In this document: piece by piece, positions 5,696 through 42,253 of the stretch
How positions within the stretch are numbered: the stretch's first letter is position 1
How the letters are laid out: every line of letters begins with the position of its first letter
Virus record (IMG/VR): IMGVR_UViG_3300047462_000086
Location: 1-43,492 of that record
Source of the DNA: a virus
DNA: 43,492 nucleotides
Strand: one strand, 5' to 3'
Translations under genes and position numbers: made by a program
Notes under the pieces: model-generated
Told to the model about the DNA's origin: nothing
The model's input: the letters and a program-made list of their open reading frames with translations, nothing else
Database searches by the model: none

Positions 5696-5737
5696 CGAAA
5701 GCCGCGCCTGACCCGTCCATCAATAAGGAGAGCAAAA

Positions 5738-7110: not shown

Positions 7111-7391
7111 CGTTAGATGATTGCCCGGAATGCGAGGGGACAAGGCTGCGCTCCGGGCCGGTTTTAGACGCATGCAGGCGCTGCGCGGCGATTGCCGAAA
7201 AAATTTGGCTCATTCGCTCCTCGATGGCTGGACTCGAATCGTTTTACCTCCACAACTTAAAGGACGCTGACTATGGGACAGAAAGAGAAGACTGCCAAAA
7301 AGGTGAAGGCGCTGGCGACGCCGACGGCGATTCCGCAAAGCCGCGAGGCTGTGGCGATCGCGATCAGCAATATCGGTGCCGCGCGGCGTAA
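7107..7391 (+). CDS. Small zinc-ribbon-like protein overlapping gam
   Basis: GTG at 7107 overlaps the previous stop (GTGA). The first 55 residues are protein-like, with paired cysteines CPEC (residues 6-9) and CRRC (23-26), which suggests one structural zinc site. No stop appears before 7391, so the frame runs about 119 bp into gam. The C-terminal 40 residues have the composition of a gam shadow (GDADGDSAKPRGCGDRD). Either the overlap is real or a sequence change removed the original stop. The function is unknown. Confidence 0.5.
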   Translation: MTLDDCPECEGTRLRSGPVLDACRRCAAIAEKIWLIRSSMAGLESFYLHNLKDADYGTEREDCQKGEGAGDADGDSAKPRGCGDRDQQYRCRAA

Positions 7392-7812
7392 GCGGCAGAG
7401 CATCGAGGCCGAGATGAACGAGCATCTCGCGCGGATCAAAGAACACTACGAAAAGCTCGCGGCGCCTTACAATGAGACGATCCTGCAGCTGCAGACGGGC
7501 GTGCAGATTTGGTGCGAGGCGAACCGGGATGCCTTGACGCAAGGCGGAAAGGTGAAGACGGCCGGGTTTACTTCGGGCGAAGTGAAGTGGCGTGTGACGC
7601 CGCCGAGCGTTGCGGTGAAGGCCGCAGCGAAGGTGATCGAGACGCTGCGAAAGATGGGGTTGGAACGGTTCATTCGCACAAAGGAAGAAGTGAACAAGGA
7701 TGCGATTTTGGCGGAGCCGGACGCGGCGCGGGCGGTGCCTGGCATCAGCATCGGCCAGATGGAAGAATTCGTGATCGAACCGTTCGACGTCAAACTCGAT
7801 GAGGTGGCGTGA
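7273..7812 (+). CDS. gam: Gam host-nuclease inhibitor
   Basis: This 179-residue protein matches Mu Gam closely. After a coiled-coil N-terminal half (RRKRQSIEAEMNEHLARI) it has WCEANRDALTQGGKVKT, GEVKWRVTPPSV and LERFIRTKEEVNKDAIL. Gam dimers, relatives of Ku, coat linear double-stranded DNA ends and protect them from RecBCD-type nucleases during infection. The start at 7273 has AAAGGA upstream and matches the family length. It lies in the early operon and is followed by a TGATG junction. Confidence 0.96.
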   Translation: MGQKEKTAKKVKALATPTAIPQSREAVAIAISNIGAARRKRQSIEAEMNEHLARIKEHYEKLAAPYNETILQLQTGVQIWCEANRDALTQGGKVKTAGFTSGEVKWRVTPPSVAVKAAAKVIETLRKMGLERFIRTKEEVNKDAILAEPDAARAVPGISIGQMEEFVIEPFDVKLDEVA

Positions 7813-8099
7813 TGTTCGCATTTGTTTATCGGAATGGCGTGATCAAGATCGCGCCGCGGCGCCCACGCGATGCCACGGCGCTGCCGCTGGCCGGCGGCCC
7901 GCGCAAGGTGTTGACGCGAGCTGTCAGCGAGATCGCGCGCAAGGGCGTCAAGAAAGGCGTTCTGCTGGTTCCTGGCGTGGCGGAGGCAGAGAGCGATTTT
8001 GACGCTTTGGCGGCGGTGGTGACGTTCAAGGAGCGGCTGGAGAAGCTGCTGCCGGCCGATAAATGCAAGCGGTTCGTACAAGTCAGGGAGGGTGCGTGA
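7812..8099 (+). CDS. Unknown early protein
   Basis: A 95-residue basic protein (FVYRNGVIKIAPRRPRD) begins at ATG 7812 within TGATG. GTG at 7809 is an alternative start. The C-terminal half contains SDFDALAAVVTFKERLEKLLPADKCKRFV. No family is recognised. Tight coupling to gam and to the following membrane peptide supports it as a gene. Confidence 0.65.
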   Translation: MFAFVYRNGVIKIAPRRPRDATALPLAGGPRKVLTRAVSEIARKGVKKGVLLVPGVAEAESDFDALAAVVTFKERLEKLLPADKCKRFVQVREGA

Positions 8100-8281
8100 T
8101 GGCGCCAGGCAGGAATAGCTACCGGGTTCGCGTGCCGCTGTTCGATGCCCGGCAGCGCCGTCTGCAGGCCGAGAAGAGGTGGCCGCGGACCATTGGGTTC
8201 GTGATTTCGTTGAGCATCAGCTTGGCGCTTTGGGCGATGATCATTTGGGTGACGATGCTGTTTTGGAAGGTGATGTCATGA
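8099..8281 (+). CDS. 60-residue single-span membrane protein
   Basis: The start at ATG 8099 shares its A with the previous TGA. A basic N-terminus (PLFDARQRRLQAEKRW) is followed by one membrane span, GFVISLSISLALWAMIIWVT, near the C-terminus. It is predicted to sit in the inner membrane with the N-terminus in the cytoplasm. The function is unknown. It ends in an ATGA junction with the next gene. Confidence 0.65.
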   Translation: MAPGRNSYRVRVPLFDARQRRLQAEKRWPRTIGFVISLSISLALWAMIIWVTMLFWKVMS

Positions 8282-8796
8282 GCTGGGAAGATGTGGCGCC
8301 GCGGCAATCGGCGCATAGAGGCGGATCGGCCACGATGGTGGTGAGCTGCTCCTCGAATGGCGCGGGCGCGCGGTTTTCGCATTGGCTGGGGGTCACGATC
8401 CGCGCCCGGGAGATCGACCTGGCGTGGCTGAAGGTGGGCGCGCTGGTGAAGGTGCAGCGCAACGGGGTGCAGATGCGGCTGTGCAATGATGGCGCGCATG
8501 TGTTGGGGAATGTCGGCGGCTGGAAGGCCGTGAAGGATACGAGCCTTTGCGTTTTGCGGCTGCCGGCGCTGGCGACGCAAAGCAGGATGAAGTTCGGGTC
8601 GACCCGGTGCGATTACGAGATCGCCGAGGGGATGCTTGTTTTCACGCTGCCGGCCTGGTGTTTTTCCGAGATCGCGGCGCAGGGGGCTATTCCGGATATC
8701 GCGCGCCCGCCCGCCGCCGGGGCGGCGCCGTTCAAGATCGGCGCGCCGAGCCATGCGGATGTGAACCGCCGGCGCGGCGTGCCTGGGGCTGATTGA
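8278..8796 (+). CDS. Unknown early protein
   Basis: This 172-residue protein starts at ATG 8278 (ATGA overlap). An in-frame upstream extension to 8179 would overlap the membrane-protein gene. It looks globular and beta-rich (SHWLGVTIRAREIDLAWLKVG) with a proline- and alanine-rich tail (DIARPPAAGAAPFKIG). I do not recognise the family. Its place between gam and gemA corresponds to the semi-essential early region of Mu. Confidence 0.65.
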   Translation: MSWEDVAPRQSAHRGGSATMVVSCSSNGAGARFSHWLGVTIRAREIDLAWLKVGALVKVQRNGVQMRLCNDGAHVLGNVGGWKAVKDTSLCVLRLPALATQSRMKFGSTRCDYEIAEGMLVFTLPAWCFSEIAAQGAIPDIARPPAAGAAPFKIGAPSHADVNRRRGVPGAD

Positions 8797-9011
8797 TGTC
8801 GCGCAAGAGACAGGCGGTTGCGGTCGCCCTCTTCATTAAAAGGCGCGTCATTGAGGAACGCATCGTGCCGGACGCGTTCATATGGATGGGAGAGGAATTT
8901 TTACGTGACCTTCTCCAAGTGCTCGATGACGCCCTAAGCATCGTCGATGTTGGAGTACGGGTTCAAAAAATACTCGAAGCGGCGGAGGTCCAGCATGAGC
9001 ATCGTTCCTGA
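8796..9011 (+). CDS. Unknown small early protein
   Basis: This 71-residue protein starts at ATG 8796 in a TGATG junction; TTG at 8793 is an alternative. It begins MSRKRQAVAVALFIKRRVIE and ends with a charged helix. It overlaps the start of gemA by 17 bp. No family is recognised. Confidence 0.6.
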   Translation: MSRKRQAVAVALFIKRRVIEERIVPDAFIWMGEEFLRDLLQVLDDALSIVDVGVRVQKILEAAEVQHEHRS

Positions 9012-9869: not shown

Positions 9870-9914
9870 GCTAAACCGGTTTAGCAAGAAGCCGTGATGC
9901 GCGCGGCGCAAAAT
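9870..9914 (+). promoter_or_regulatory. Late promoter 1 (lysis block): activator palindrome plus -10
   Basis: The perfect 16-bp palindrome GCTAAACCGGTTTAGC (9870-9885) is followed 23 bases later by CAAAAT (9909-9914) and 35 bases later by the endolysin ATG. The same palindrome occurs at 21045 and 32799 with equivalent spacing. Its position corresponds to Mu Plys. The palindrome centre lies about 43 bp before the start codon, which fits an activator site overlapping a weak -35 if transcription starts near the ATG. Confidence 0.75.
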
Positions 9915-9920
9915 GCCCGC

Positions 9921-10499
9921 ATGATCAGTTATTCCAGCGACATCATCGCGCGCGCGATCGCGCAGGCTTCGGGTATTTCCCGCGCGCCTGGCGAAGAGGG
10001 CCTGGTGCTGCACGCGTATCCGGACCCCGCGACGGGACGTGACCCGTGGACGATCGGTTTTGGTTCGACGCGGATGCTGGATTTCACGACGGGCGTGCGG
10101 CGGCCGGTTCGGACAGGTGATGTTGTGAGCGCAGCCGAGGCCGAGATGATGCTTGAGGCCGACTTGCGCGAGAGCTTGCAGACAGTGCTGGATACGACGT
10201 TCGTGATGCTGAACGGTGACCAGCTTGGCGCGCTGACCAGCTTTACGAACAATGTGGGGCGCGGCGAGAAGGGCGTGAAGGACGGGCTGGTTTGCCTGCG
10301 CAGCGGCGCGCCTTCGACGCTGCTGCAGATGGTGAATGCGCGGATGTTCGAGCAAGCCGCCGGGCAATTTGGGCTGTGGGATTTGGCGGCCGGCCGCGTG
10401 ATGGGCGGGCTGGTGAGGCGCCGCGCGATCGAGCGGGATGTATTCCTTTCCAAGCTGGATATGACGGGCGCGGTTGTTCCCGCCTGGTGGCGGCCATGA
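9921..10499 (+). CDS. Endolysin, GH24 lysozyme type
   Basis: This 192-residue muramidase should cleave peptidoglycan glycan strands at lysis. The GH24 catalytic signature is visible as GEEGLVLHAYPDPATGRDPW then TIGFGST: the Glu of EGL (residue 26), Asp35 nine residues later, and Thr44 before IGFG, as in T4 lysozyme. No signal peptide or membrane anchor is seen, so release should depend on the holin encoded next. ATG at 9921 is chosen over GTG 9894 because its distance to the late palindrome matches the other two late blocks. The stop overlaps the holin start (ATGA). Confidence 0.9.
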   Translation: MISYSSDIIARAIAQASGISRAPGEEGLVLHAYPDPATGRDPWTIGFGSTRMLDFTTGVRRPVRTGDVVSAAEAEMMLEADLRESLQTVLDTTFVMLNGDQLGALTSFTNNVGRGEKGVKDGLVCLRSGAPSTLLQMVNARMFEQAAGQFGLWDLAAGRVMGGLVRRRAIERDVFLSKLDMTGAVVPAWWRP

Positions 10500-11180: not shown

Positions 11181-12257
11181 ATGACCCGCATATTGTTTGT
11201 TCTGAAATTTCGCGAAAATTCCTATGGCGGCGAGAGCGCGCAATACTCGCGCTGCCTGACTAGCGGATTGCTGAACAGCGCGACGTTCGTTTGCGACATG
11301 CTGAAATCCCGGTTCGAGACGAAGCTCGTTCAGGTCGTCGACAATAATTGCATCGATCGAGAGGTTGTCGCATTCGCGCCTGATGTGGTGGTGATCGAAG
11401 CCTATTGGGTCGTACCCGAGAAATTTGCCGAGCTGGGCAAGCTTCACCCGAAGGTGAAGTGGATAATCCGCAATCATAGCAACGCGCCGTTTTTGGCAAA
11501 CGAGGGCATCGCCTATGGCTGGACGATTGATTATGTCAGGCACCCGAACGTGTGGGTGAGTTCCAATCACCCGGCCGCCCATGGCGAGTTTGTCGATCTG
11601 ATCGCGGTCGCGTTCGACACGAAGATTGGCCAGGCTTCGCGCCGCGCCGTGTACCTGCCGAATTATTATCCGATCGCCGGCGAGGTTGAGCCGAGCGCGC
11701 CGTATGCCGGGCGCGGCACGATCGACGTTGGATGTTTTGGCGCGATCCGGCCGCTGAAAAACCAGATGCTCCAGGCGCTGGCGGCGATAACCTGGGCGCG
11801 GCAGAACGGCAAGTTTTTGCGCTTTCATATCAATGGCGGCCGCGTAGAGGGTAACGGCGAACCGATTTTGAAAAATCTTCGCTCGACGTTGGCGGCTCTG
11901 GAAACGGCGCGGCTTGTTGAGCATGCATGGCTCGACCGGGAGGATTTCCTGGCGATGGTAAAGACGATGGACCTGGGACTTCAGGTTTCATTTTCAGAGA
12001 CCTTCAACATCGTTGCGGCGGATTTTGTGACGATGGGCGTGCCGATCGTTGTCAGTCCGGAGGTGCATTGGGTCGATGCGCGGCTGCACGCGTCACCGAC
12101 GAGCGTGGGCAGCATTGTCGCGGCGATGAGCACCGCGCTGAACTGCCCAGGGTGGGATTGGCCGGATCGGTCGCTGGCGCAGCTCGCGCGGTTTGATGAG
12201 GATTCGAAAATTCATTGGGTGAATGGCATCACGCGTGTGCTGGAAGATGTGAAGTGA
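11181..12257 (+). CDS. GT-B-fold glycosyltransferase, GT4-like
   Basis: This 358-residue protein has a GT-B layout. The N-terminal part begins MTRILFVLKFRENSYGG, and the C-terminal half has GCFGAIRPLKNQ and the donor-binding-type motif SETFNIVAADFVTMGVPIV with VSPEVHW. Such enzymes transfer a sugar from a nucleotide donor. It is not part of the Mu core and sits between the lysis genes and the gp25-like gene, so it is probably cargo. Possible acceptors are host surface polysaccharide (altering phage receptors) or modified phage DNA; the sequence does not decide. The start has GAGGA eight bases upstream. The stop overlaps the next gene (TGATG). Confidence 0.8.
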   Translation: MTRILFVLKFRENSYGGESAQYSRCLTSGLLNSATFVCDMLKSRFETKLVQVVDNNCIDREVVAFAPDVVVIEAYWVVPEKFAELGKLHPKVKWIIRNHSNAPFLANEGIAYGWTIDYVRHPNVWVSSNHPAAHGEFVDLIAVAFDTKIGQASRRAVYLPNYYPIAGEVEPSAPYAGRGTIDVGCFGAIRPLKNQMLQALAAITWARQNGKFLRFHINGGRVEGNGEPILKNLRSTLAALETARLVEHAWLDREDFLAMVKTMDLGLQVSFSETFNIVAADFVTMGVPIVVSPEVHWVDARLHASPTSVGSIVAAMSTALNCPGWDWPDRSLAQLARFDEDSKIHWVNGITRVLEDVK

Positions 12258-14921: not shown

Positions 14922-16516
14922 GCGACGCCGCGCTCCTCGATGCGCCGGCGGCGTTGCCGCCGGTGTTTCTGAATTATCAACAGCGGCTGATGAGCGCGGT
15001 TGCGCGGAATGCCGTGGTGGTTTGGGAGAAGTCCCGGCGCACCGGGTTTTCCTGGGCGGCGGCCGCGATCGCTTCGTTGACGGCATCGAGCGCGCGCGAG
15101 GCGGGCGGCATGGATGTGCTGTACCTGGGCTATAATTTGGAGATGGCGCGCGAGTTCATCGACTATGTCGGCGAATGGACCGTGACGCTTGGTGCCGCCG
15201 CCGGCGAGATGATGGAGGTGATGATCGATGATCCGGAGCACCCGGAGAAATCGGTCAAGGCGTTTCGGGTGGAATTCGCGTCCGGCTTCAAGGTGCTGGC
15301 GCTGCCATCCGTGGCGCGCGCGCTGCGCGGCATGCAGGGGCTGGTGATCATCGACGAGGCGGCTTTCCATGATGATTTGCCGGGCGTGTTGAAGGCGGCG
15401 TTCGCGCTGTTAATCTGGGGCGGCAAGGTGGTTGTGCTGAGCACCCATGACGGCGACGGCAACCCGTTCAACACGCTGTGCACCGATATCCGCGCCGGGC
15501 GGCTGCCGTACCATATCGGGCGGACGACGTTCGATGAGGCGCTGGCGGACGGGCTTTACCGGCGTGTTTGTTTGACCGCCGGCAAGGCGTGGACGCCGGA
15601 GGGCGAAGCGGCGTGGCGCGCGGAAATTATCGCGATCTATGGCGCGAATGCGGATGAGGAATTGTTCGTCATTCCGAGTGCGGGCACCGGCGCTTATCTA
15701 TCGGCCGCGCTGATCGAAGCGCGGATGGATGAGACAATTCCGGTGAGGCGGCTGGAGTTGCCGGCGAGTTTTTTGATGATGTCCGAGCGGCTGCGGATCG
15801 CCGAGATCGAGGAATGGTGCGCGCGCGAGCTGCTGCCGATTTTGAAGACGCTGGATGCCAAGACGCCGTATTGCTTCGGGCAGGATTTTGGGCGCAAGCG
15901 CGACCTTTCCGTGTTCTGGCCGCTGGCGATCTGCCGCGATTTGGTGCTGCGCACGCCGTTCCTGCTGGAAATGCGCAACGTGCCTTACGAGGCGCAAAAG
16001 CAGGTGATTTTCTACATCATCGACCGGTTCCCGATTTTCCGGGCGGGCAAGTTCGATGCCGGCGGAAATGGCGGCTACCTGGCCGAAGTCACGATGCAGA
16101 GATATGGCGAGCGCATCGAGGCGGTGATGCTGAACGAGCCTTGGTACCGTGAGCACACGCCGCGGTACAAGGCGCAGTTCGAAGACGCGACGATCACGCT
16201 GCCGCGCGACCGCGAAGTGCTGGATGACCACCGGCTAGCGAAATTGATCCGCGGCGTGGGGCGCATTCCGGATGAGCGCACCGGCGAGGCCGGCAAGAGG
16301 CGGCACGGCGACAGCTTCGTCGCCGGCGTGCTGGCGGTGGCGGCGTCCAGGGCTGAGCCCGAGGAATATGGCTATGAGGCGGTGCCCCTGCGCAGCACGG
16401 CGCCGGCGACCAGTGCCGGGTTTTATGCGACGGCCGAGGAGGCCGATGCCGTGGATGATGAGCGGCAGAACGATGCCGGATACATGCACGCGCCGACGCG
16501 GCGGGTTTACCAATGA
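14918..16516 (+). CDS. Terminase large subunit, Mu gp28-like
   Basis: This 532-residue packaging motor drives DNA into the prohead and cuts it. The ATPase half shows an adenine/Walker A region, WEKSRRTGFSWAAAA (about residues 43-57), Walker B GLVIIDEAAF and coupling motif VVVLSTHDGDG. The nuclease half has acidic positions in FGQDFGRKRDLSVFW, KFDAGGNGGYLAE and RRHGDSFVAGVLAVA, typical of RNase H-like terminase nucleases. ATG at 14918 overlaps the previous stop; an in-frame start at 14903 would add five residues. It is separated from the portal gene by four small genes. Confidence 0.93.
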   Translation: MSDAALLDAPAALPPVFLNYQQRLMSAVARNAVVVWEKSRRTGFSWAAAAIASLTASSAREAGGMDVLYLGYNLEMAREFIDYVGEWTVTLGAAAGEMMEVMIDDPEHPEKSVKAFRVEFASGFKVLALPSVARALRGMQGLVIIDEAAFHDDLPGVLKAAFALLIWGGKVVVLSTHDGDGNPFNTLCTDIRAGRLPYHIGRTTFDEALADGLYRRVCLTAGKAWTPEGEAAWRAEIIAIYGANADEELFVIPSAGTGAYLSAALIEARMDETIPVRRLELPASFLMMSERLRIAEIEEWCARELLPILKTLDAKTPYCFGQDFGRKRDLSVFWPLAICRDLVLRTPFLLEMRNVPYEAQKQVIFYIIDRFPIFRAGKFDAGGNGGYLAEVTMQRYGERIEAVMLNEPWYREHTPRYKAQFEDATITLPRDREVLDDHRLAKLIRGVGRIPDERTGEAGKRRHGDSFVAGVLAVAASRAEPEEYGYEAVPLRSTAPATSAGFYATAEEADAVDDERQNDAGYMHAPTRRVYQ

Positions 16517-17034: not shown

Positions 17035-17305
17035 GCTTCGCGCCGGCGGCGACCTGGTGGAGATGGCCGAACATGAAACCATGCGGCAGATGCTGCGGCA
17101 TTTGCAGAGTGCGACGATGCTGCCGGGTAGCTTCGATAAGAGGTTCGTGGCGGATGTTTGGCAGCGCGCGCCCGCGATGCTGACGCCGAAACAGAGCGCG
17201 TTCGTGAAGCGCCTGGTGTGGAAATACAGGCGGCAGATGCCGGCCGACCTGGCGGCCTTGTGCAAACCTACGCCGATTGAAAGGACGCGCGCCAATGCAA
17301 GTTAA
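17027..17305 (+). CDS. Unknown protein, paralogue B of a small pair
   Basis: This 92-residue protein starts at ATG 17027 with an 8-bp overlap. Its C-terminal half (MLTPKQSAFVKRLVWKYRRQ, then MPADLAAL) resembles that of the 16527 gene, suggesting a duplication. The YRRQ(L/M)P region is the best conserved part. Possible roles in packaging or head assembly are only suggested by location. Confidence 0.65.
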   Translation: MAELRAGGDLVEMAEHETMRQMLRHLQSATMLPGSFDKRFVADVWQRAPAMLTPKQSAFVKRLVWKYRRQMPADLAALCKPTPIERTRANAS

Positions 17306-17513
17306 ATCGCTTTGCGATATGACATTCTCCGATCTGGCCAGCGAGCTTGAGGCCGCGCGCCAGGCGGTGCAGGCGGCGGATTACCAGGACGGCCTTGACG
17401 CCTGGCAGCGCGCGAAGGATGCCGCGAACGAGCGTTTGCGGATGGTGCAGGCGGAAGTGGATTTGCGGTTGAGCCGGCTGGGCGCCGCCGGCGGCACGCC
17501 GGTGGAGGGATAG
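17295..17513 (+). CDS. Small coiled-coil protein
   Basis: This 72-residue protein starts at ATG 17295 with AAAGGA nine bases upstream. It is mostly one amphipathic helix (LASELEAARQAVQAADYQDG, then RMVQAEVDLRLSRL). Small coiled-coil proteins between terminase and portal are common in Mu-like phages; no specific function is claimed. Confidence 0.6.
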   Translation: MQVKSLCDMTFSDLASELEAARQAVQAADYQDGLDAWQRAKDAANERLRMVQAEVDLRLSRLGAAGGTPVEG

Positions 17514-17517
17514 AGTT

Positions 17518-19209
17518 ATGGCCGATGATGATAGCCGGCTGATCGACCAGTTCGGCAACGTGATCAGGAGCAGCGATATCGCGCGGCTGCGCGAGCCGAT
17601 TGCCGCACCTGGCGGGTTTGGCGGCAGGCCGCCTTTCGAGGGGCACCGGGCGTTCGGCATTCAGCCGTGGCAGATAGGGATGTATCTGCGGGCGGCGGAT
17701 AATGGCAGCACGCGGGATTGGTTCGTGCTGTGCGAGGAGATCGAGGAGCTGTACCCGCATTACGCCGCGGTGCTGGGTAAAAGGAAGCGCCAGGTGTGCC
17801 TGCTGCCGGTGACTGTCGAGGAAGCCGATGACGGGCCGGACAAGGTGAAGCACGCCGACTTCGTGCGCAAATGGTTGAAGACGGGCGTGCTTGACCGGGC
17901 GATGTTCGACATGGCGGATGCGATCGGCAAAGGGTATTCCGTCAACGAAATCATGTGGGATACGCAGCCGGGGCGGGTTTGGCCTTCGGAGATCATCTGG
18001 CGGCATCAGCGCGACTTCGAGATTTCCTGGAAGGATGGCGAGACGATTTGGCTGCGTGATGAGGCCGGGTTCGTGCCGCTGGCCGAGCATAAATTCATCC
18101 TGCATGTGCATAAGAGCAAATCGGGCGGCCCGGCGCGCAGCGGGCTGACCCGCATGATCGCCTGGATGTGGATGTATGCCGTGTTCACCATGAAGGATTG
18201 GGCGTTGTTTGTGCAGGGCTATGGGTTGCCGGTGCGGCTGGGGCGGTATGGGCCCGAGGCATCCACCAGCGACAAGCGGACGCTGTGGAATGCGGTGCGG
18301 TCGATCGCCGGTGATCTGGCGGCGATTATTCCGAAGAGCATGGAGATGGAGTTCGTGCAGCCGCAGAACGCCAATGACGGTTCAAAACTGTTCAGCGAGC
18401 GGATGAATTTTCTGAATTACGAGGTGAGCAAGCTGGTTCTGGGCGGGACCGCCGGGACCGATGCCGTCGCCGGCGGCCACGCTGTGGGGCAGGAGCACCG
18501 GGCGGGCGAGCAGGATGTGGAGAAATTCGATGCGGGGCTGATGGCCGGTTCGATCAACCGGCAGCTGATCCCGGCGATGATCGCGTTCACGTTCGGGCCG
18601 CAGGAGAACGGCTACCCGACGATCAAGATCGGCGAGGATGAGAAAGTTCCGGTGAGCGACCTGATCGCGGCGGTCGCCGACCTTGGGCCGCTTGGGTACA
18701 AGGTGAAGGCATCCGAGATGCATGACCGGATGCAGACGACGATGCCGGAGGCCGGCGATGAGGTGATCGGCGCGCCGCCGCCGGCGCCGGCCGGCGCGGT
18801 TGGTGGGAAGCTGGATGCGAACGGCAACCCGCTGGTGAAGGCGGATGTGACGCCGAAGGCGAACCCGCACCCGGAGATCAACCCAATGTCGGATGCGCGG
18901 GCGCTGATGACGGCGCGCAGTTTTAGGCGGTTCGTGGCGGCGCAGACTGCGAAGGATGCGCGGACTTCCGGCGTGATCGACGCGCTGAGCACCAGGTTGG
19001 AGGAGCAGGCGCAGGGCGCGCTGGCGGCGATGACCGCGCAGATCCGCGCTTGCGTGGAGCAGGCCGAGGATTTGCCTGACCTGGCCGTGAAGCTGAAGAC
19101 GCTGAACCTGGATGATACGGCGTTTCAGAATGCGATGATGCAGGGCATGGTGCTGGCGAATTTGGCTGGCCAGGCTGACCTGCTGGATGAGATCGCGGGC
19201 CAGGCGTAG
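17518..19209 (+). CDS. Portal protein, Mu gp29-like (DUF935)
   Basis: This 563-residue protein forms the ring at the head vertex through which DNA enters and leaves. Family features include AFGIQPWQIGMYLRAADNGS near residue 46, YPHYAAVLGKRKRQV, NEIMWDTQPGRVWPSEIIW and WALFVQGYGLPVRLGRYGP. Length and order match Mu gp29. ATG at 17518 has only a weak ribosome site (GGAGGGATAG). It is followed by the F-like gene after three bases. Confidence 0.93.
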   Translation: MADDDSRLIDQFGNVIRSSDIARLREPIAAPGGFGGRPPFEGHRAFGIQPWQIGMYLRAADNGSTRDWFVLCEEIEELYPHYAAVLGKRKRQVCLLPVTVEEADDGPDKVKHADFVRKWLKTGVLDRAMFDMADAIGKGYSVNEIMWDTQPGRVWPSEIIWRHQRDFEISWKDGETIWLRDEAGFVPLAEHKFILHVHKSKSGGPARSGLTRMIAWMWMYAVFTMKDWALFVQGYGLPVRLGRYGPEASTSDKRTLWNAVRSIAGDLAAIIPKSMEMEFVQPQNANDGSKLFSERMNFLNYEVSKLVLGGTAGTDAVAGGHAVGQEHRAGEQDVEKFDAGLMAGSINRQLIPAMIAFTFGPQENGYPTIKIGEDEKVPVSDLIAAVADLGPLGYKVKASEMHDRMQTTMPEAGDEVIGAPPPAPAGAVGGKLDANGNPLVKADVTPKANPHPEINPMSDARALMTARSFRRFVAAQTAKDARTSGVIDALSTRLEEQAQGALAAMTAQIRACVEQAEDLPDLAVKLKTLNLDDTAFQNAMMQGMVLANLAGQADLLDEIAGQA

Positions 19210-32850: not shown

Positions 32851-33306
32851 ATGGCAGACATTGCATTCGCATATAACCCGGTCACGCGCTGCGCCGATGT
32901 CGTATTCAACGGCACGGATTTCGCGTTCGACACGACGCCGGCGAGCGCGATGGTGTTCAGCGTGCTGGCGAAGCGGCGCGCGCGGCCGGATGATGTTGTG
33001 CCGAGCCCGGTGGATGATTGGAGTGAGCCTGCGAGCTTCACCGCCCGCGGCGGCACGCCATGCGATGCGCTGGATGCAAGCGGGGCGTTGGTGGGCAGCC
33101 GGGTGTGGTTGTTCGACAGGTCCGATAACAGCGAGGCAACCAGGCAGGGCGTGGAAGATGCGATCGCCCAGGCGGTGGCCTGGCTGGAGAGCAAACGCAG
33201 CCTGGCGCTGAAACTGCGCGTGCGGTGGGTGGCCGCGCAGATCCTGGGGTACAAGCTGCAGGCGGGGAATACTGTGTTGCAGCTGCGACAGGCTGTCGGC
33301 GCGTGA
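32851..33306 (+). CDS. Baseplate protein, Mu gp46-like (GPW/gp25 family)
   Basis: This 151-residue protein matches gp46 of Mu, a baseplate wedge protein: FAYNPVTRCADVVFNGTDFA, FSVLAKRRARPDDVVP and GSRVWLFDRSDNSEATRQGV. It is the first gene of late block 3. ATG at 32851 has no Shine-Dalgarno and lies 36 bases after the palindrome. It overlaps gp47 as GTGA. Confidence 0.9.
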   Translation: MADIAFAYNPVTRCADVVFNGTDFAFDTTPASAMVFSVLAKRRARPDDVVPSPVDDWSEPASFTARGGTPCDALDASGALVGSRVWLFDRSDNSEATRQGVEDAIAQAVAWLESKRSLALKLRVRWVAAQILGYKLQAGNTVLQLRQAVGA

Positions 33307-34409
33307 GCGCGGCCGTCGGTACGACCTGGCCGATCCCGGCGCCTGGCGATATCGCTTCGCGGTGCGCGGCGGTTTATGAGGCGGCGTTTCCGCCGAACCC
33401 GGCCCTGGGGTCGGACGGCATCGATGCCCGCAACCCCAACACGATCGCCACCACGAATTGCCGCATCGTCGAATTGGCGATGCTGGATTTGTATTATTAC
33501 CAGGGCAATATCGCGGTCGAGCTGATGCCCGATACGGCGGTGGCGAATCTTTCGCGGTTCGGCGCGATCTGGGGTGTGCCGCAGGACCAGCCGGCGAAAG
33601 CCACGGGCAATGTGATCGTGACGGGCACGGTGGGTGTTGCGATCCCGAGCAATATCATATTCAGCTATCCGAATTCGAATTACACGTACAAAAGCACCGC
33701 CGGCGGTACGATTGGTTCCGGCGGGACGCTGAGTGTGCCGGTGGTGGCGCAGATTGCCGGGACGGCCAGCAATGTGGAGGCTGGCACGCAGCTTAAAGTG
33801 AACAGCGTCGTTGGGGGTTTGACGTCGCAGCTCGGCGTTGTGGACGCGGGCGGTATTGCGGGCGGCCTGGATTTGGAGAGCAATGATTCCTGGCGTTCGC
33901 GCATTCTGGCGCGCATCCGGCGCGCGGCGATGGGCGGCTGCGCGAATGATTACGAGACATGGGTGAACGCGGCGCTGCCCGGCGTTGGCGACGTGAGCAT
34001 CATCAGCGGCTATGGTGGCCTGCCGAATGTTGGGGTTGTTTTCGCCATGGCCGGCCCTGTGGTGCCCACCAGCGGGCAGATTGCCACGGTGCAGGCTTAC
34101 CTCGACCAGCCGGGCATCAAGCCTGTGACGGCCGTGCCTGTGGTGCTGGCGGCGGTGCTGCACCCGGTGGCGTGCACGGTGCATCTTTCGCCAGATACGC
34201 CGACGTTGCGCACGGCGGTGACGAATGCGCTGGCGCTGTGCTTCCAGCAGAATGGCGCGATCAACGGCACCATCACCTTCGCGAGTTTGGAGAACGCGAT
34301 CGCCAGCGTGGTGGGTAGCGGGAGTTACGTGCTGAGCGTGCCCTCGGCTGACGTGCCGGCGCCGAGCGTGCTTTCGATCAATACACTGGGCGCGGTGACG
34401 TTCATATGA
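33303..34409 (+). CDS. Baseplate J-like protein, Mu gp47-like
   Basis: This 368-residue protein starts at GTG 33303 (GTGA). Family features are GAIWGVPQDQPAKATGNVIV, GTASNVEAGTQLKVNSVVGG, GGIAGGLDLESNDSWRSRIL and NDYETWVNAALPGVGDVSII, typical of Baseplate_J. It joins the wedge to the sheath initiation ring. An in-frame frame extension to 33225 lies within gp46. Confidence 0.93.
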   Translation: MSAAVGTTWPIPAPGDIASRCAAVYEAAFPPNPALGSDGIDARNPNTIATTNCRIVELAMLDLYYYQGNIAVELMPDTAVANLSRFGAIWGVPQDQPAKATGNVIVTGTVGVAIPSNIIFSYPNSNYTYKSTAGGTIGSGGTLSVPVVAQIAGTASNVEAGTQLKVNSVVGGLTSQLGVVDAGGIAGGLDLESNDSWRSRILARIRRAAMGGCANDYETWVNAALPGVGDVSIISGYGGLPNVGVVFAMAGPVVPTSGQIATVQAYLDQPGIKPVTAVPVVLAAVLHPVACTVHLSPDTPTLRTAVTNALALCFQQNGAINGTITFASLENAIASVVGSGSYVLSVPSADVPAPSVLSINTLGAVTFI

Positions 34410-34963
34410 GCCGCGACCAAAACACGGTTCTGACGGAGCTGCTGGCGATCGGGCCGCAGGGCGACGGCATGCCGGTGAACGGGCAGCCTGGCGCACTGTG
34501 GCCGCTGTGGCTGACGCCGCTGGCGGCCGAGATTTCGCGCTTCGAGGGCTATGCCGAGGAAATGCAGACCGAGGTGAACCCGGGGGCGACGAATTACCTG
34601 CTGCCGGATTACATCCGGCTGCTGGGGCCCGACCCTTACGGGCGAGACGCGACGGCGCTGACGACGGCGCAGGAACAGGCGTTGTTGCTGCAGCGCTATA
34701 CCGCGCGGGGGGGTGCCTCGATCGGGTATTTCGAGGAAGCGGCGGCGCAGATGGGGCTGGCGATCAGCATCACCGAAACGACGGTGTGCGAGTGCGGGAA
34801 CGCGGTGTGCGGCGACCCGTTGAGCGTTTCGCCAGAGGAATTTTATTGGCTGGTGACGATGCCCGCCGCGAGCGCCGGCACGTTCGCGGGCAATGCGGTG
34901 CAGACGCAAATTTCAACCGATGCGCCGGCGCATACCCAGCCCGTTTTTAGTTACACGGGGTAG
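34406..34963 (+). CDS. Baseplate/tail protein, Mu gp48-like (DUF2313)
   Basis: This 185-residue protein (LWPLWLTPLAAEISRFEGYA, ATNYLLPDYIRLLGPDPYGR, ARGGASIGYFEEAAAQMGL, CECGNAVCGDPL) matches DUF2313/Mu gp48, which connects baseplate to side fibres. The C-terminal cysteines in CECGNAVC could bind metal. ATGA overlap at 34406. Confidence 0.88.
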   Translation: MSRDQNTVLTELLAIGPQGDGMPVNGQPGALWPLWLTPLAAEISRFEGYAEEMQTEVNPGATNYLLPDYIRLLGPDPYGRDATALTTAQEQALLLQRYTARGGASIGYFEEAAAQMGLAISITETTVCECGNAVCGDPLSVSPEEFYWLVTMPAASAGTFAGNAVQTQISTDAPAHTQPVFSYTG

Positions 34964-34969
34964 GCGAAA

Positions 34970-35749
34970 ATGGATCGTACAAGCGGGCTTGGATACCAGA
35001 TCATCGGCGGCATCCGGCAATGGGTGAACAAGAATTTGCTGGGCGGCGTGCCGGGCACGCAGATCGACCAGGTGTTCATGAACGACCTGCAGGAAGAGCT
35101 GGTCCAGGGTATTATTACTGAAGCGGGTCTGGTGCCGACGGCCGGGGTGCAAAACCAGGTTTTTGCCGCGTTGGTGGCGATGCTGGGGCAGCCGGAGTTT
35201 TTTGTTTTCGCGACGCAGAATGTGACGGTGCCGACTTGGGCGACGCGCGCGCGGGTGACGCTGATCGGGGCGGGTGCCTCCGGCGCCGCCAGCGGTTCGA
35301 GCGGGAATGCCGGCGGCGGCGGTGGTGGCGCCGGGCGTTTCGATGGCATCGTGAGCGGGTTGGTGGGTGGCCAGGTCATCCATGTGACGATTGGCACGCC
35401 GGGTGCCGCTGTTTCGAGCGGCAACGGCATTAACGGGTCCATCTCCTCGTTCGGGAGTTATATAACGTGCCCCGGCGGCATGCAGGGATTGGGGGCGAGC
35501 CCCTATTTGGCCGGCGCCGGCGGGAGTTCATCGGTGTCCGGGTCGGTGTCTGGTTACGCGATGAATTTGGGCTCGGCAAATGGCGGCGGTTCAGGTCCAG
35601 GTGCCGGGAATGGCGGCGGGGGTAACGCGACCGGCAGTGTCAGCGGCACACCGAACCCGGCTTCCGCCTTTGGCGCGGGCGGGGGCGGCGGCGTGACGGG
35701 CGGCGGCGCGGGCGGCCAGGCTGTCGCGTCGGTGCGGTGGATACCGTGA
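34970..35749 (+). CDS. Tail fibre or adhesin with glycine-rich tip
   Basis: This 259-residue protein has an N-terminal attachment-like part (GYQIIGGIRQWVNKNLLGGV, DQVFMNDLQEELVQG), an ATQNVTVPTWATRARVTLIGAG segment, then long polyglycine-rich repeats (NAGGGGGGAGRFDGIV to AFGAGGGGGVTGGGAGGQAV). Such glycine-rich sandwiches form receptor-binding tips in T-even gp38-like adhesins and are often hypervariable. It probably contacts the host surface. Confidence 0.75.
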   Translation: MDRTSGLGYQIIGGIRQWVNKNLLGGVPGTQIDQVFMNDLQEELVQGIITEAGLVPTAGVQNQVFAALVAMLGQPEFFVFATQNVTVPTWATRARVTLIGAGASGAASGSSGNAGGGGGGAGRFDGIVSGLVGGQVIHVTIGTPGAAVSSGNGINGSISSFGSYITCPGGMQGLGASPYLAGAGGSSSVSGSVSGYAMNLGSANGGGSGPGAGNGGGGNATGSVSGTPNPASAFGAGGGGGVTGGGAGGQAVASVRWIP

Positions 35750-36365: not shown

Positions 36366-36692
36366 GTGGCCGCGAAAACAATCCTGCAACGCACGCTTTT
36401 CACGCCGAATGCAGGGCAGTCCATCCCGGTTTCCGATCCCGCGCTCGGGCCTGGGCTGAAGAATGGGCGCATCACGATAGGCCAGCTGATGGCGTTGCTC
36501 TCGCAGCCTGACCTGACGGCGGCGAGCTACATGGCGTTCGTTTTGAGTTTGCCGACATCGCCGCCGGCGACGCTGGGGATGTGGAACAATAATGGCGTGC
36601 CCACGCTGGGTGTGGCGCCTGCCTCAACCGGCGCGCCTTCGATGAATTTCTCGAAGGCGGCCAATTCTCAATATTTGCCGTTTTTTCTTTAG
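36366..36692 (+). CDS. Small fibre-region protein
   Basis: This 108-residue protein starts at GTG 36366 directly after the previous stop. TLFTPNAGQSIPVSDPALGP and GLKNGRITIGQLMALLSQPD suggest a small structural protein. Function unknown. Confidence 0.6.
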   Translation: MAAKTILQRTLFTPNAGQSIPVSDPALGPGLKNGRITIGQLMALLSQPDLTAASYMAFVLSLPTSPPATLGMWNNNGVPTLGVAPASTGAPSMNFSKAANSQYLPFFL

Positions 36693-37186: not shown

Positions 37187-37630
37187 ATGAAAATTCTCAA
37201 TATGCTCGCGGCGTTTTTTGCCGCCGCGGCGCTGTTGCTTCCCGCCCAGGCTTTTGCTCAGGCGGACACCATCAATGTCAACAACGCGCCGGTTTCGACG
37301 ACGAACCCGCTGCCGACGTCGCCGTCACCGCTTGAGCTTCCGAGTGTCAATGGATCGGCGACAATCAGCGTGGGCGGGTCTTTTCAAACCGTGCTGGCGC
37401 AAAATTCGTCGCGCAAGGGATGCTTTATTCAGAACCCCATCACCGCGACTGAACCGCTTTACGTCTACGTCTACAGCGGAACGTCCGGCACGCCTTCGCT
37501 GGCGGGCGCCATCGGGCTGGGAGCTGGCGCGCCGTTTTACTGCTCCGTTGGCGCTTCGGGCGTGATCACCGACCAGATCGCCGTTGAGGCCGCGACGACG
37601 GGCCATGCATTTGTGGAGTTCAGCCAATGA
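37187..37630 (+). CDS. Secreted protein of the fibre cassette
   Basis: This 147-residue protein carries a clear signal peptide (MKILNMLAAFFAAAALLLPA, cleavage after AFA), with GAGGCGGG upstream of ATG 37187; GTG 37172 is in frame but would obscure the signal. The mature part is beta-rich (VNGSATISVGGSFQTVLAQ, SSRKGCFIQNPI). A Sec signal is unexpected for a virion protein. It overlaps the next gene by four bases. Confidence 0.72.
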   Translation: MKILNMLAAFFAAAALLLPAQAFAQADTINVNNAPVSTTNPLPTSPSPLELPSVNGSATISVGGSFQTVLAQNSSRKGCFIQNPITATEPLYVYVYSGTSGTPSLAGAIGLGAGAPFYCSVGASGVITDQIAVEAATTGHAFVEFSQ

Positions 37631-38748
37631 AAACTTTGAAATGGATTTTGTGCTGGGCGCTGATCGCGGCGCCTGCATTCGCGCAGACTGTCGGCCCCTC
37701 CTCAGGCAATTCGAACGTCAACGCGACCGGCACGGTCACGACGGGCGCGCCTGCGGTGTTTTCCGGATCGCAGGGGATTACCAGCGGGGCGTTCACGCAA
37801 TCGGGCTTGGCGAATTTCACGGGTTCGTTTCAGGTCAATGGGGCCACGATCACGTTCCCGTCGGCGCCGGCGACGCTGGATTATCAGGTTGGCGCGTTTG
37901 TCAGCGGGCATTGCTTGCAGGCTTCCGGGACGGCGGGCGGGATTGCGGATGCCGGGGCGGCGTGCGGCACCGGCGGTGGCGGCGGCGGCGGCGTTTCGAG
38001 CGTGGGGCTTTCGTTGCCGAGTATTTTTTCGGTCACCGGCTCGCCTGTCACCAGCTCCGGCACGTTGAATGGCGCGCTGGCGCCCGAGAGTGCCAATACG
38101 GTGTTTGCGGGGCCTTCCTCGGGCGCTGCGGCGGTGCCCAGCTTCCGGGCGATCGTGGCCGCGGATATTCCGCCGATTAATCTCGCATCCGGTGTAACGG
38201 GCAATTTGCCCGTCGCGGATCTGAATAGCGGGATTGGCGCATCATCTACGACGTTCTTCCGCGGTGACGGCACGTGGGCGACGCCGCCCACGTCGGGCGG
38301 TTCGTCTGGCGTGACTTTCGGCGGCACGAATTATAGCACGCTTGCGGCGAGTTCTGGCATCTCGATCACGCCGAGCGGCAGCACGCTCACTTTTTCATCG
38401 AGCGGTTCATCTTCGGGGTTGAGCCCGACCGCGTGCCCGGCTGCGGTCGGTGGCGTCATTACGCTGCCGTTCGCTAGCTCAGGCAATATTTGGTACGCCT
38501 GCACCATTAGCGCAAACACGACGTTCGCGATTTCCGGCGGCACGACGACGTCGCTGCAAGAGATCAGGATGGAAATTATCGAGAACTCGACGGGTGGGTT
38601 CAGTGTTACCCTGCCTTCCAGTTCTTCCTCTCCCGCCGTGCTTTGGCCCGGAGGCGTGCAGCCCACGCCGGTGAGCGCCGCCAATTCGATAAACATCTTC
38701 AAGGTGAGCACGACCACGGTCTCAGGCAAACTGATCGGGAGCTATTAA
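37627..38748 (+). CDS. Tail-fibre-like protein with Sec signal peptide
   Basis: This 373-residue protein starts MKTLKWILCWALIAAPAFAQ, a signal peptide with AFA cleavage. The mature part is low-complexity, then has GGGGGGGVSSVGLSLPSIF and the phage-fibre hallmark FRAIVAADIPPINLASGVTG with FFRGDGTWATPPTSG. Fibre modules of this type are common, but an export signal on one is odd. The C-terminal third is a Ser/Thr-rich beta domain. Confidence 0.75.
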   Translation: MKTLKWILCWALIAAPAFAQTVGPSSGNSNVNATGTVTTGAPAVFSGSQGITSGAFTQSGLANFTGSFQVNGATITFPSAPATLDYQVGAFVSGHCLQASGTAGGIADAGAACGTGGGGGGGVSSVGLSLPSIFSVTGSPVTSSGTLNGALAPESANTVFAGPSSGAAAVPSFRAIVAADIPPINLASGVTGNLPVADLNSGIGASSTTFFRGDGTWATPPTSGGSSGVTFGGTNYSTLAASSGISITPSGSTLTFSSSGSSSGLSPTACPAAVGGVITLPFASSGNIWYACTISANTTFAISGGTTTSLQEIRMEIIENSTGGFSVTLPSSSSSPAVLWPGGVQPTPVSAANSINIFKVSTTTVSGKLIGSY

Positions 38749-38750
38749 TC

Positions 38751-40964
38751 ATGACGACGTTTACGCTCGCCGCGCCGACCACGGGACCGACCAGTTCGGT
38801 CTTTAATCAGGTTTCGGGTGCCTTCAAGGTCACGCCTTCCGACAACGCCTATACCGGCACGATCACGCCAAACGATGGCGGCGCGGGCGGCACATTCTAT
38901 CCGGCGTCTCACACGGTTTCGGCGAGTGCCGTGGCCTTCTATTTCTATTACCGTCCGCCATCTGGCGGAAGCTCGGCGAACATTACAATCACGGGCTCTC
39001 CCGCCATCGCGGCCGTCGCCCCGATCACCTACAACTGGACGACGAACTACACCTCCCTCAATGACAATTTCACGCGCGCCAACACGGCTTTGGGCGCGGC
39101 GGGCAGCACGAATGTCGGCAACGGATGGACCGATGTTGTCGGGAATATCTGGCAGATTTCGAGTAATCAGCTTGCTGGAACTTCGGTTGTGCATGGCTTC
39201 TCGAACGGCACTCTTGAGCAGCCGGCGTTACTTCAGGATTGCCGGGTCACCGCGATCAGCGCGTCGAATTGGTACTCGACCACGCAGGACCTAGTTGTCA
39301 ACGCGCGCATTCAATCGAGTGAGCCAGCGGGGACGGCTATCTGCTATGCGGTGCAGGCGTTCCCGAATAATACCAACACGATAACGATCACAGCCGCAGC
39401 GGCCAATGGGTCCAACACGGTTGTCGCGCTAAGTTCAAACGGCTACGCGTCGCTGGTTTCAGGACATGCGGTGCAGCTTGATGTTGTGGTTACCGGCATC
39501 AATCCGACGACCATCACCGCGACGCTCATCGACACTGTGACAGGCGTCGTCATCGCCCAGGTGACGGGCACTGACTCGACGGCGTCTTTGCAGCAGCCCG
39601 GCGCGACGGGCATAGGGCCACAGATTGCGGCGGGCACCGCAGGGACCGCAGTCGCCTATTCGGGCGCTTCGGTTTTCACGCCGGTTGCCAACGCGGTCAG
39701 CTTGACCGGGCCGGCCAATGTCCCGACGGGCTATCCGAGCACCGCTTACACTATCACCCCAAATGGCCCTTTCACGGGCACCGTCACGCTTGCCAGCACC
39801 GTGCCGGGGACGTTCTCACCGTCAGCCACACTGACTTTTTCAAACAGCAGTTCGCCTCAGACCGTGACGTTCACGGCGTCGGCGAATGGGACTGGCACGA
39901 TCTCGGAGACAAATTCCGGCGGCCTGGCCAACGCGAGCCCGATCTCGATCACGGCAGCGACGCCGGCGTCGTTCGCGCCCAATAATTCCGCGATTTACTA
40001 CTCGCCCATGAACTGGAATTTCAACGGCGCTACAAATTCCTTTTCAAATTGGCCGGGCGCCTACATTAAGTTTGGCTTTGGGGGCACCAGCCTGTTGCTA
40101 CAGACGAACAACCCGCTTGCTGGGGAGAAAATTTTCTACTCCATTGACGGCGGTGCTTATCAGTATGTGCTCGTGCCTGCCGGCCCTCAGACGCTTTCAA
40201 TCGCCGCCGGATTGGCCGCAGGTACGCATCAAATCCAGCTTGGGATTGCCGCGCTGGGCACGACCGATCGGTGGAATACGCCGCAGGACGTGTTGAATCT
40301 CACCGGCATTTTGCTCGACGCCGGATCAACCCTGTCTTCGCCCACCCTGTTGCCGCAGATAGGGCTGCATATCGGCGACTCAATCACAGAGGGATGCTCG
40401 CAGCTTACGCCTGGCGGAAGCGATGTCGCGCACTCGCAGTGGCCGACCTCGTGGGATAACCTTCTTGCGACGGCATTGAACGCCGAGATCGGCGTCGTCG
40501 CGTGCCAGCATTCCGGTTACGAATTGGCTGGGCAAGGCAATGTGCCGAACGTGCTGACATATTGGAACCAGATGTACGCGGGCGCCGCACGCACCTTTAC
40601 GCCCGTAAGCTATATTTGGATCAATCACGGCACCAATGGAGCGACGACGCAGGCGGATGTTCAGACGCTGCTGACCGAGCTGCGCGCGGCATTTCCGCAA
40701 ACGCCGATTTTCCAGCAGGTGCCATTTGGCCAATATGCCGCTGCGGCGATCACCGCTGCTGTGGCCGCGCAGAACGATCCGAAAGTGATTTTGGTGAATT
40801 TGGGAGCGGCTGGAAACACGCTTTTGCTCGCCAATTCCTATGACGGCATTCACCCGAATGCGGCCGGATCACCTTTGCTGGAACAGATGTTGATCCCGGT
40901 GGTGGCGGCCGATGCGCTGCCGTTCATCAAGCAGCAAATCGCCAACCCCTGGTACCACGCATGA
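38751..40964 (+). CDS. Large tail protein with C-terminal SGNH hydrolase
   Basis: This 737-residue protein has Ig-like and lectin-like beta domains over about residues 1-520 (NDNFTRANTALGAAGSTNVG is a concanavalin-like start). A C-terminal SGNH/GDSL hydrolase follows: block I GDSITEG with Ser544, block III HGTNG with Asn629, block V DGIHPN with Asp698 and His701. Such enzymes deacetylate polysaccharides, so a role in modifying host capsule or O-antigen acetyl groups is likely. No signal peptide is seen. ATG at 38751 follows the previous stop by two bases. Confidence 0.85.
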   Translation: MTTFTLAAPTTGPTSSVFNQVSGAFKVTPSDNAYTGTITPNDGGAGGTFYPASHTVSASAVAFYFYYRPPSGGSSANITITGSPAIAAVAPITYNWTTNYTSLNDNFTRANTALGAAGSTNVGNGWTDVVGNIWQISSNQLAGTSVVHGFSNGTLEQPALLQDCRVTAISASNWYSTTQDLVVNARIQSSEPAGTAICYAVQAFPNNTNTITITAAAANGSNTVVALSSNGYASLVSGHAVQLDVVVTGINPTTITATLIDTVTGVVIAQVTGTDSTASLQQPGATGIGPQIAAGTAGTAVAYSGASVFTPVANAVSLTGPANVPTGYPSTAYTITPNGPFTGTVTLASTVPGTFSPSATLTFSNSSSPQTVTFTASANGTGTISETNSGGLANASPISITAATPASFAPNNSAIYYSPMNWNFNGATNSFSNWPGAYIKFGFGGTSLLLQTNNPLAGEKIFYSIDGGAYQYVLVPAGPQTLSIAAGLAAGTHQIQLGIAALGTTDRWNTPQDVLNLTGILLDAGSTLSSPTLLPQIGLHIGDSITEGCSQLTPGGSDVAHSQWPTSWDNLLATALNAEIGVVACQHSGYELAGQGNVPNVLTYWNQMYAGAARTFTPVSYIWINHGTNGATTQADVQTLLTELRAAFPQTPIFQQVPFGQYAAAAITAAVAAQNDPKVILVNLGAAGNTLLLANSYDGIHPNAAGSPLLEQMLIPVVAADALPFIKQQIANPWYHA

Positions 40965-42253
40965 CCCGGTTCATCTTCTGCCTTATCTTCCTGCTGGGCC
41001 AATGGACGCCCGCTTTCGCCGGCGGCGTCACGGGTAACCTCAGCCCTGGCACGGTGGTCTCGATACACCCTGGCCTGACAACGCAGGCGACCCAACTGGC
41101 TCCCCGGCTCAGCCATACGATCGATGTGATGGACGATGTTTCGCCACCTGTGGTGTGCGACGGCAAGACGGATAATGCCAAGGCGTTCGCGGCGATTTAC
41201 GCGGCTGAACAGCCAGGTGATACGGTTTACTTCCCGCCATCGTTTGGCGCATCCGGCGTGGTGCCTTGCCTGTCTTCCACGCTTCTGCAGGGCAAGGCTG
41301 GGGTGGACTTTTGGGCTTATCCTGGCACCGTGATCTTGTCGCCGACGGCAAGCTCCGCCGCGTCACCGCTGCTGTTCGAAGGTGGGTCGAACGAATACGT
41401 GTACGGCCTGACTTTCGACGGTGGAGGCCAGAGTTTCGCGAGCACGAGCACCGTGGTTCTTTTCTATCTGACCTCTGGGGTCACGATGGACCACGTGACT
41501 GTCCAGAACACGCGCGGCATTGGCGCCCTGTTCAGCGGGGCCACGAACGACACGGTGAAAGATAGCTGGTTTGTCGACGTTGGCGGGCCGGCTGGGATCA
41601 CCGATAATGCGCAGGGCCTGGCGTTTTGCTGTGGGACTGAGGCGACCAATACGGGCGACAGCGTCCTCGACAACCATTTTCTCACGACTGGTCTGGACGC
41701 CATTTCGGCTTCGAACCTCAACGGCTTGCTGGTCGAGGGGAATTATTGCGACAAAAATCAGGACCAGGTGGGGCAGCCGGCCGACCCGGCCTGTGTGTTT
41801 ATCACGCAGTCGATCGGGCCGGTTGTGGTGGCTGGCAACGTGGCGATCGGGATGGCGGGAAACGGGTATGACCTTTCCTCGCTGACCAGCGTGACGCTGA
41901 CGGGCAATTATGCCATCGATAATGGGTCCAATGGGTTCACGGATTACGGCATCGCGAATTGGTCCGCGCTCGGCAATTATGCCATCGATAATTGCCAGGT
42001 GGGGACGCGGTTTGGGCCTTGCGCTGGATTTACCTTTTCCCCCGGCACGGCGGCCGAGGCGAATGGCAGCATGACGATGGTGGGCAACGAGGCGTATGAC
42101 GACCAAAACACCCATACCCAGCAGTACGGCGTTTACAATAGCGCGGGGACCACGTTCAGCGAGCCTTGGTCTGTGGGTAAGAGCAATATCTTCTACGGTA
42201 ATACCGTCTCGCAAATGGGCGGTGGTGGCCCGGTTGCCGGCTACACGCCTTGA
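40961..42253 (+). CDS. Right-handed beta-helix tailspike-like protein with signal peptide
   Basis: This 430-residue protein begins MTRFIFCLIFLLGQWTPAFA, a Sec signal. It has the pectate-lyase-like fold pattern: DGKTDNAKAFAAIYAAEQPG, DTVYFPP, YGLTFDGGGQSFASTSTVV, then parallel beta-helix turns (LNGLLVEGNYCDKNQD, VTLTGNYAIDNGSNGF, ALGNYAIDNCQVG). Tailspikes of this type cleave or bind surface polysaccharide. Catalytic residues cannot be assigned. It is the last gene of late block 3 and overlaps the SGNH gene by four bases. Confidence 0.8.
   Translation: MTRFIFCLIFLLGQWTPAFAGGVTGNLSPGTVVSIHPGLTTQATQLAPRLSHTIDVMDDVSPPVVCDGKTDNAKAFAAIYAAEQPGDTVYFPPSFGASGVVPCLSSTLLQGKAGVDFWAYPGTVILSPTASSAASPLLFEGGSNEYVYGLTFDGGGQSFASTSTVVLFYLTSGVTMDHVTVQNTRGIGALFSGATNDTVKDSWFVDVGGPAGITDNAQGLAFCCGTEATNTGDSVLDNHFLTTGLDAISASNLNGLLVEGNYCDKNQDQVGQPADPACVFITQSIGPVVVAGNVAIGMAGNGYDLSSLTSVTLTGNYAIDNGSNGFTDYGIANWSALGNYAIDNCQVGTRFGPCAGFTFSPGTAAEANGSMTMVGNEAYDDQNTHTQQYGVYNSAGTTFSEPWSVGKSNIFYGNTVSQMGGGGPVAGYTP

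Follow-up and report, generated by a model that had tools for sequence, protein, structure and literature searches.

Sec Signal Peptides Predicted on Fibre-Type Proteins in the Tail Fibre Cassette of a Mu-Like Phage

Three fibre-type proteins encoded in the tail fibre cassette of a Mu-like phage, here called P1, P2 and P4, begin with predicted Sec signal peptides, and their export to the periplasm is very likely real. In some phages, receptor-binding parts seem to leave the cytoplasm. By the textbook rule, the virion parts of tailed phages are made and assembled in the cytoplasm. A sequence-only reading of this DNA had recognised the signal peptides and the fibre character of the proteins and had proposed that they are either exported effectors or virion parts processed in the periplasm; it had missed their recurrence in unrelated phages and the link to a cysteine pair. 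These are the right alternatives, between which sequence alone cannot choose. We lean, tentatively, towards the second: P1, P2 and P4 may be fibre parts that mature in the periplasm, form disulphide bonds there and join virions at lysis.

The window analysed here is an entire IMG/VR virus record (IMGVR_UViG_3300047462_000086, 43,492 nucleotides). It represents a Mu-like phage with a contractile tail and encodes a repressor, MuA, MuB, Gam and a phage lysozyme, packaging and head proteins (TerS/TerL, portal, protease and major head protein) and tail proteins (sheath, tape measure, baseplate hub and wedge proteins). Its terminase is closest to those of Acetobacteraceae (Acetobacter fallax, Acetobacter sp. 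DsW_063 and a Rhodopila MAG) and also of two Proteobacteria MAGs, and the host is of the acetic-acid type of bacteria. A sister phage, the viral contig L005, has a baseplate J protein 76% identical to that of the window. Between the lysozyme and terminase genes lies a gene for a glycosyltransferase-like protein (11181-12257; weak PF13692 match), possibly a surface-modifying or host-takeover gene. The features of the fibre cassette and the genes before it are as follows:

33225-34963, plus strand: baseplate J-type protein and the subsequent wedge protein, directly upstream of the fibre cassette
34970-35749, plus strand: tail fibre with a glycine-rich tip, without a signal; the conventional virion fibre
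36366-36692, plus strand: short stand-alone fibre anchor (108 aa), with homologues fused to fibres in L005 and L145
36705-37175, plus strand: small phage-type protein (156 aa) without a signal, immediately before P1
37172-37186, plus strand: alternative GTG start of P1 in a GTGA overlap, adding MRRAN to the n-region and leaving the signal unchanged
37187-37630, plus strand: P1, predicted Sec signal peptide (37187-37258) and small beta-sandwich domain
37627-38748, plus strand: P2, predicted Sec signal peptide (37627-37683) and fibre-type protein with FFRGDGTWATP
38751-40964, plus strand: SGNH/GDSL esterase-type fibre protein (CE2_N and Lipase_GDSL_2) without a signal peptide
40961-42253, plus strand: P4, predicted Sec signal peptide (40961-41020) and right-handed beta-helix protein

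The fibre block, of five co-translated genes, is tightly packed, with a GTGA overlap at 37172, ATGA overlaps at 37627 and 40961, and a gap of two bases ahead of the SGNH gene. For P2 and P4 the ATGA overlaps with the preceding stops fix the starts; P1 starts either in the GTGA overlap with the previous stop or at an ATG 12 bases on, with a signal either way. The overlapping arrangement implies that the fibre block is co-expressed with the tail genes, and the P1, P2 and P4 genes lie in the late tail operon, contiguous with the baseplate genes and with 4-base overlaps. Promoter-like sites were no commoner than in shuffled sequences. The earlier description as a cassette of three signal-bearing proteins needs one correction, as the block also holds the signal-less gene at 38751-40964. 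In the sister phage L005 a different protein, of 458 aa, occupies the place of this esterase gene. A D12-class adenine DNA methyltransferase gene (PF02086; 42387-43199) adjoins the cassette end, and a methyltransferase gene of similar look stands in the same place in an A. fallax prophage (L147, 9359-10180).

Signals were called with a home-made heuristic Sec/SPase I scorer, not SignalP. On a stretch of the E. coli genome it recovered 6 of 6 known secreted proteins (tolB, pal, cpoB, ybgS, modA and ybhC); its false calls were 2 membrane proteins among about 40 E. coli genes and 8 of 185 noise ORFs. The N-terminus of P1 (ATG 37187 or GTG 37172) reads MKILNMLAAFFAAAALLLPAQAFA up to the predicted cleavage site and QADT after it; the corresponding sequences are MKTLKWILCWALIAAPAFA and QTVG for P2 (ATG 37627) and MTRFIFCLIFLLGQWTPAFA and GGVT for P4 (ATG 40961). 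Each has a positive n-region, a hydrophobic h-region and an A-x-A site within about 30 residues, and all three end in AFA. Scores were 13.1, 12.4 and 14.4, respectively, values attained by 0.2%, 0.05% and 0% of shuffled N-termini in 2000 trials. The claim of clear signal peptides at 37187, 37627 and 40961, each with AFA cleavage, is therefore borne out by scores, shuffles and fixed starts. They are the sole scoring signals among the approximately 65 genes of the window, and the chance of three sharing one five-gene block is 2.3e-4. The numbers of cysteines in the mature proteins are even in every case (2 in P1, 4 in P2 and 8 in P4).

Mature P1 is one small domain, modelled by AlphaFold from four rows as an eight-stranded beta sandwich with modest confidence (pLDDT 64.5). 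Compared with solved structures, the model resembled many small viral proteins and matched none with confidence, and searches of Pfam, NCBIfam and PHROGs gave no named family, only a weak match to phrog_22789 (function unknown, E 0.0025-0.013); P1 represents an unnamed small beta-sandwich family. Searches with P1 in samples of Acetobacteraceae genomes and viral contigs, followed by a short alignment, yielded at least 9 distinct signal-bearing members, window included, which are very diverged and lie in unrelated phages and prophages: a podovirus-like phage, a siphovirus-like prophage, contractile-tail prophages and the window. P1 stands between TerL and P2, with the portal gene following, in the podovirus-like L178; between a tail assembly gene and the end of the contig in L184/L198; after a glycine-rich fibre in L186/L199; between tail fibre and endolysin/holin in L152/L163/L179, L153/L165 and L180; and after a head-type or portal-type gene in L189/L190 and L191. 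A second signal-bearing fibre-type gene follows P1 in the window, L178, L198, L163/L179, L165 and L180, and the 4-base overlap between the two is identical in the window, L178 and L198. No close relatives of P1 or P4 were found in isolated phages. In the Acetobacteraceae prophage L163, tandem signal-bearing proteins (15976-16503 and 17133-17648; 86% identical over 148 residues) alternate with duplicated hub-like pieces, and L165 has a like pair (82%). L180 (5210-5473) and L153 (244-483) carry a third short signal-bearing gene of about 80-88 aa, containing cysteine, after the pair made up of P1 and a glycine-rich gene and before the lysis genes.

The letters of the P1-family signals vary among members while their signal character is kept, as expected of a working signal. 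Cysteines occupy both of two aligned positions (C79 and C119 of the window protein, full-length numbering) in 8 of 9 signal-bearing members; L189/L190 has its pair at other positions. None of the four signal-less homologues (L158, L164, L192 and L185) has either cysteine, their sequences reading VADI or TADI and YR[VI]S at the two positions (Fisher p 0.007). In the P1 tree, however, all the homologues without a signal fall into one clade, so that signal and cysteines were lost (or gained) together once; independent origins were considered and rejected, as the tree requires only one change.

P2 carries the motif FFRGDGTWATP, which had been named as a fibre hallmark; it is indeed a phage-fibre motif, though not specific to exported proteins. 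A profile of the C-terminal beta domain of P2 also finds the signal-less 1319-aa main fibre of an A. fallax prophage and an exported fibre of Acetobacter sp. DsW_063. P2 also matches a protein of one metagenomic phage genome, and that protein carries no signal. P4, a right-handed beta-helix protein (Pfam PF13229, Beta_helix, above the gathering score), has no PHROG of its own; its AlphaFold model, built with four distant rows, reached pLDDT 30 and was discarded. Sequence searches of the PDB gave no match for P2, P4 or the SGNH protein. A P4 homologue, L196, matches tail-spike and EPS-depolymerase families and adjoins an endolysin gene. The window proteins and their relatives show sequence similarity to virion fibres and spikes: the A. 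fallax main fibre shares the P2 domain, and the relatives L148 and L196 match tail fibre and spike PHROGs.

Anchoring differs among the relatives. Homologues of the stand-alone anchor at 36366 are fused to a 729-aa fibre in L005 (13260) and a 324-aa fibre in the prophage L145 (4758), and in these phages, with anchor and shaft fused, no exported fibres were seen. In the Mu-like L148 of Acetobacter sp. DsW_063, a signal is followed by a fibre with a typical anchor module (E=7.5e-4, curated anchor profile); this exported fibre occupies the main-fibre locus, and the fibre that A. fallax encodes there shares the beta domain but bears no signal. A swap to cysteine like that of the P1 family is seen here too: the last hairpin of the DsW_063 fibre reads VLTCGTDD...VICGL, and that of signal-less relatives VVNFATDD...YLGGL or IISYLTDD...YGGL; this is one example. 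No docking module was recognised in P1, P2 or P4, and one in L243 was recognised by pairwise comparison only. Modules in L022 and L286 had no match in 50,697 phage records and are not claimed as canonical. The idea that an exported protein copies the same phage's virion tip was dropped, as all-against-all BLAST of 14 cassettes gave no exported/non-exported pair. Exported members match structural families, namely tail fibre (L148), tail spike (L196), head decoration (P2 of L198) and minor tail protein (L179), and their genes lie amid baseplate genes (beside J in L022; between spike-type and gp25/J-type genes in L243) or beside fibre and lysis genes (L163, L180 and L196).

The frequency of such signals was estimated from two pattern scans of IMG/VR, in loci of environmental origin not selected for signals. 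Signals were found on 9 of 94 complete FxRGDGTW fibres versus 25 of 856 other genes of those loci (p=0.004), and on 7 of 117 beta-helix spikes, so that some 6-10% of the fibres sampled bear one. Beta-helix proteins with GAxCDG had signals in 2 of 5 cases versus 5 of 112 for GAxGDG, a weak difference (p=0.03). Overall cysteine density was not significantly raised in exported fibres (p=0.11), and a general enrichment was therefore rejected; the only cysteines that track the signal are those at the P1 positions and, weakly, at the GAxCDG position. In L301, an environmental phage, several signal-bearing fibre genes follow one another (3686-8928), as in the window, and the mature N-terminal domain of the first is shared with a beta-helix protein at 6487 (60% identity). 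L305 (2439-6437) encodes a 1333-aa C-type beta-helix protein with the signal-like stretch VKRVALALALLVLLVPLARAQ; its start is probably too early, and it was left out of the signal-bearing count. In the open literature, outside which most subscription journals lie, no papers on Sec signals of phage fibre proteins were found.

The results support that P1, P2 and P4 are made late, as one translationally coupled unit with the tail genes, and that they are very likely carried to the periplasm by the Sec machinery and presumably cut by SPase I after AFA. There the even cysteines of the mature proteins could form disulphides disallowed in the cytoplasm. If they are virion parts, the three would be distal, receptor-binding parts of the particle that were split off the phage's fibre. 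Tails bearing the conventional fibre and the short anchor (36366) would be assembled in the cytoplasm, while the exported parts would fold in the periplasm, meet tails once lysis breaches the inner membrane, and dock at that point or immediately outside the cell. T4 fibres can join finished particles in extracts; we know of no phage with Sec signals for which docking after lysis has been demonstrated. As a by-product, the exported parts would cover receptors on the dying cell and on its debris, and one protein may be both virion part and receptor-occluding agent.

We favour this explanation because the signals are strong, cluster together and occur nowhere else in the genome; because those of the P1 family are kept and paired with cysteines, and a second signal-bearing fibre-type gene recurs after P1; because exported members match structural families and sit amid baseplate or fibre and lysis genes; because the DsW_063 signal precedes an anchor-bearing fibre at the main-fibre locus, and the anchor of the window is a separate short gene, fused in L005 and L145; and because fibres bore signals more often than other genes in the unbiased samples. 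Against it, P1, P2 and P4 appear to lack a recognisable docking module, and the exported parts may be dispensable, given that the window also encodes a conventional fibre without a signal. The coupling of signal and cysteines is a single event, cysteine density is not significantly raised, and the scorer is home-made.

Close behind stands the somewhat unlikely possibility that these are free proteins off the virion. Bound to the receptors of their own phage, from the periplasmic side or externally, they would keep infected cells and lysis debris from catching progeny, a form of superinfection exclusion like that of T5 Llp. Known phages encode exclusion proteins next to a receptor-binding gene that are exported and disulphide-bonded: Llp is periplasmic, encoded just downstream of pb5 and bonded through Cys11-Cys58 (PMC9586334), and Rtp45 is an exclusion protein with a disulphide (PMC12685063). 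A signal peptide is also present in lambda Lom, whose gene lies between those for spike and fibre (PMC12309495), and late co-expression with fibres fits as well. The known examples are, however, lipoproteins or outer-membrane barrels, whereas the window proteins lack a lipobox and reach 430 aa; they keep repeats, a beta domain and a beta-helix that would be superfluous in a pure blocker, and in L148 it is the main fibre itself that carries the signal.

Distinctly less probable is the release of enzymes, P4 and perhaps P2 degrading polysaccharide or modifying the surface together with the SGNH esterase, so as to open the cell's exopolysaccharide at lysis or earlier. Depolymerases and deacetylases typically have beta-helix and SGNH/CE2 domains, and the family matches of L196 and its place beside an endolysin gene agree with this; yet P1, besides lacking an enzyme fold, is too small, and the SGNH protein of the same block has no signal. 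The absence of active-site evidence and the discarded P4 model also count against it. That the proteins are cargo of lysogenic conversion, surface adhesins benefiting the host and merely parked in the cassette, is improbable: the phage is temperate and Mu-like and has a methyltransferase gene at the cassette end, but the genes overlap by 4 bases inside a late operon with no promoter above chance, and members belong to structural phage families. Least probable of all, the N-termini might be hydrophobic stretches that only resemble signals. The scorer does make false calls on membrane proteins and noise ORFs; against this stand three complete n-h-c signals, each with AFA, in a single block, and nine diverged P1 homologues whose signals persist despite varied letters and accompany the cysteine pair.

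Recurrent as they are, fibre-type proteins with Sec signals either break the rule of cytoplasm-only assembly or amount to widespread self-exclusion built from a phage's own fibre modules. Either outcome alters the annotation of fibre genes and the expression of receptor-binding proteins, for which an oxidising compartment may be required. More broadly, and speculatively, a sizeable minority of environmental tailed phages might use Sec-exported receptor-binding parts, disulphide-bonded in the periplasm and added at or after lysis, their assembly being spread across two compartments.

Among known systems, the window proteins resemble tail fibres and spikes (Gly_rich_2, Beta_helix, Pect-lyase_RHGA_epim, Lipase_GDSL_2 and PHROG tail families) in their position after baseplate J and wedge genes, their FxRGDGTW repeats, their beta-helix and a C-terminal beta domain that also occurs in a main fibre without a signal; they differ in their predicted cleavable Sec signals and periplasm-type cysteine pairs. 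With T5 Llp, Rtp45 and Cor they share being phage-encoded, exported and placed beside a receptor-binding gene, P1, P2 and P4 lying within the fibre cassette, and Llp and Rtp45 are also disulphide-bonded. Those proteins are small lipoproteins of unrelated sequence, whereas the window proteins have fibre-type domains, and their mature N-termini (QAD, QTV and GGV) lack the +1 cysteine of Llp and Cor. Lambda Lom is likewise a signal-bearing gene product encoded between tail spike and tail fibre genes; it is an outer-membrane beta-barrel, and by Pfam matches P1, P2 and P4 show no similarity to outer-membrane barrel families. Spanins and signal-bearing endolysins are exported by the host Sec machinery, as proposed here for the window proteins, which differ from them in having no lysis domain, the lysozyme of the window being encoded elsewhere (9894-10499).
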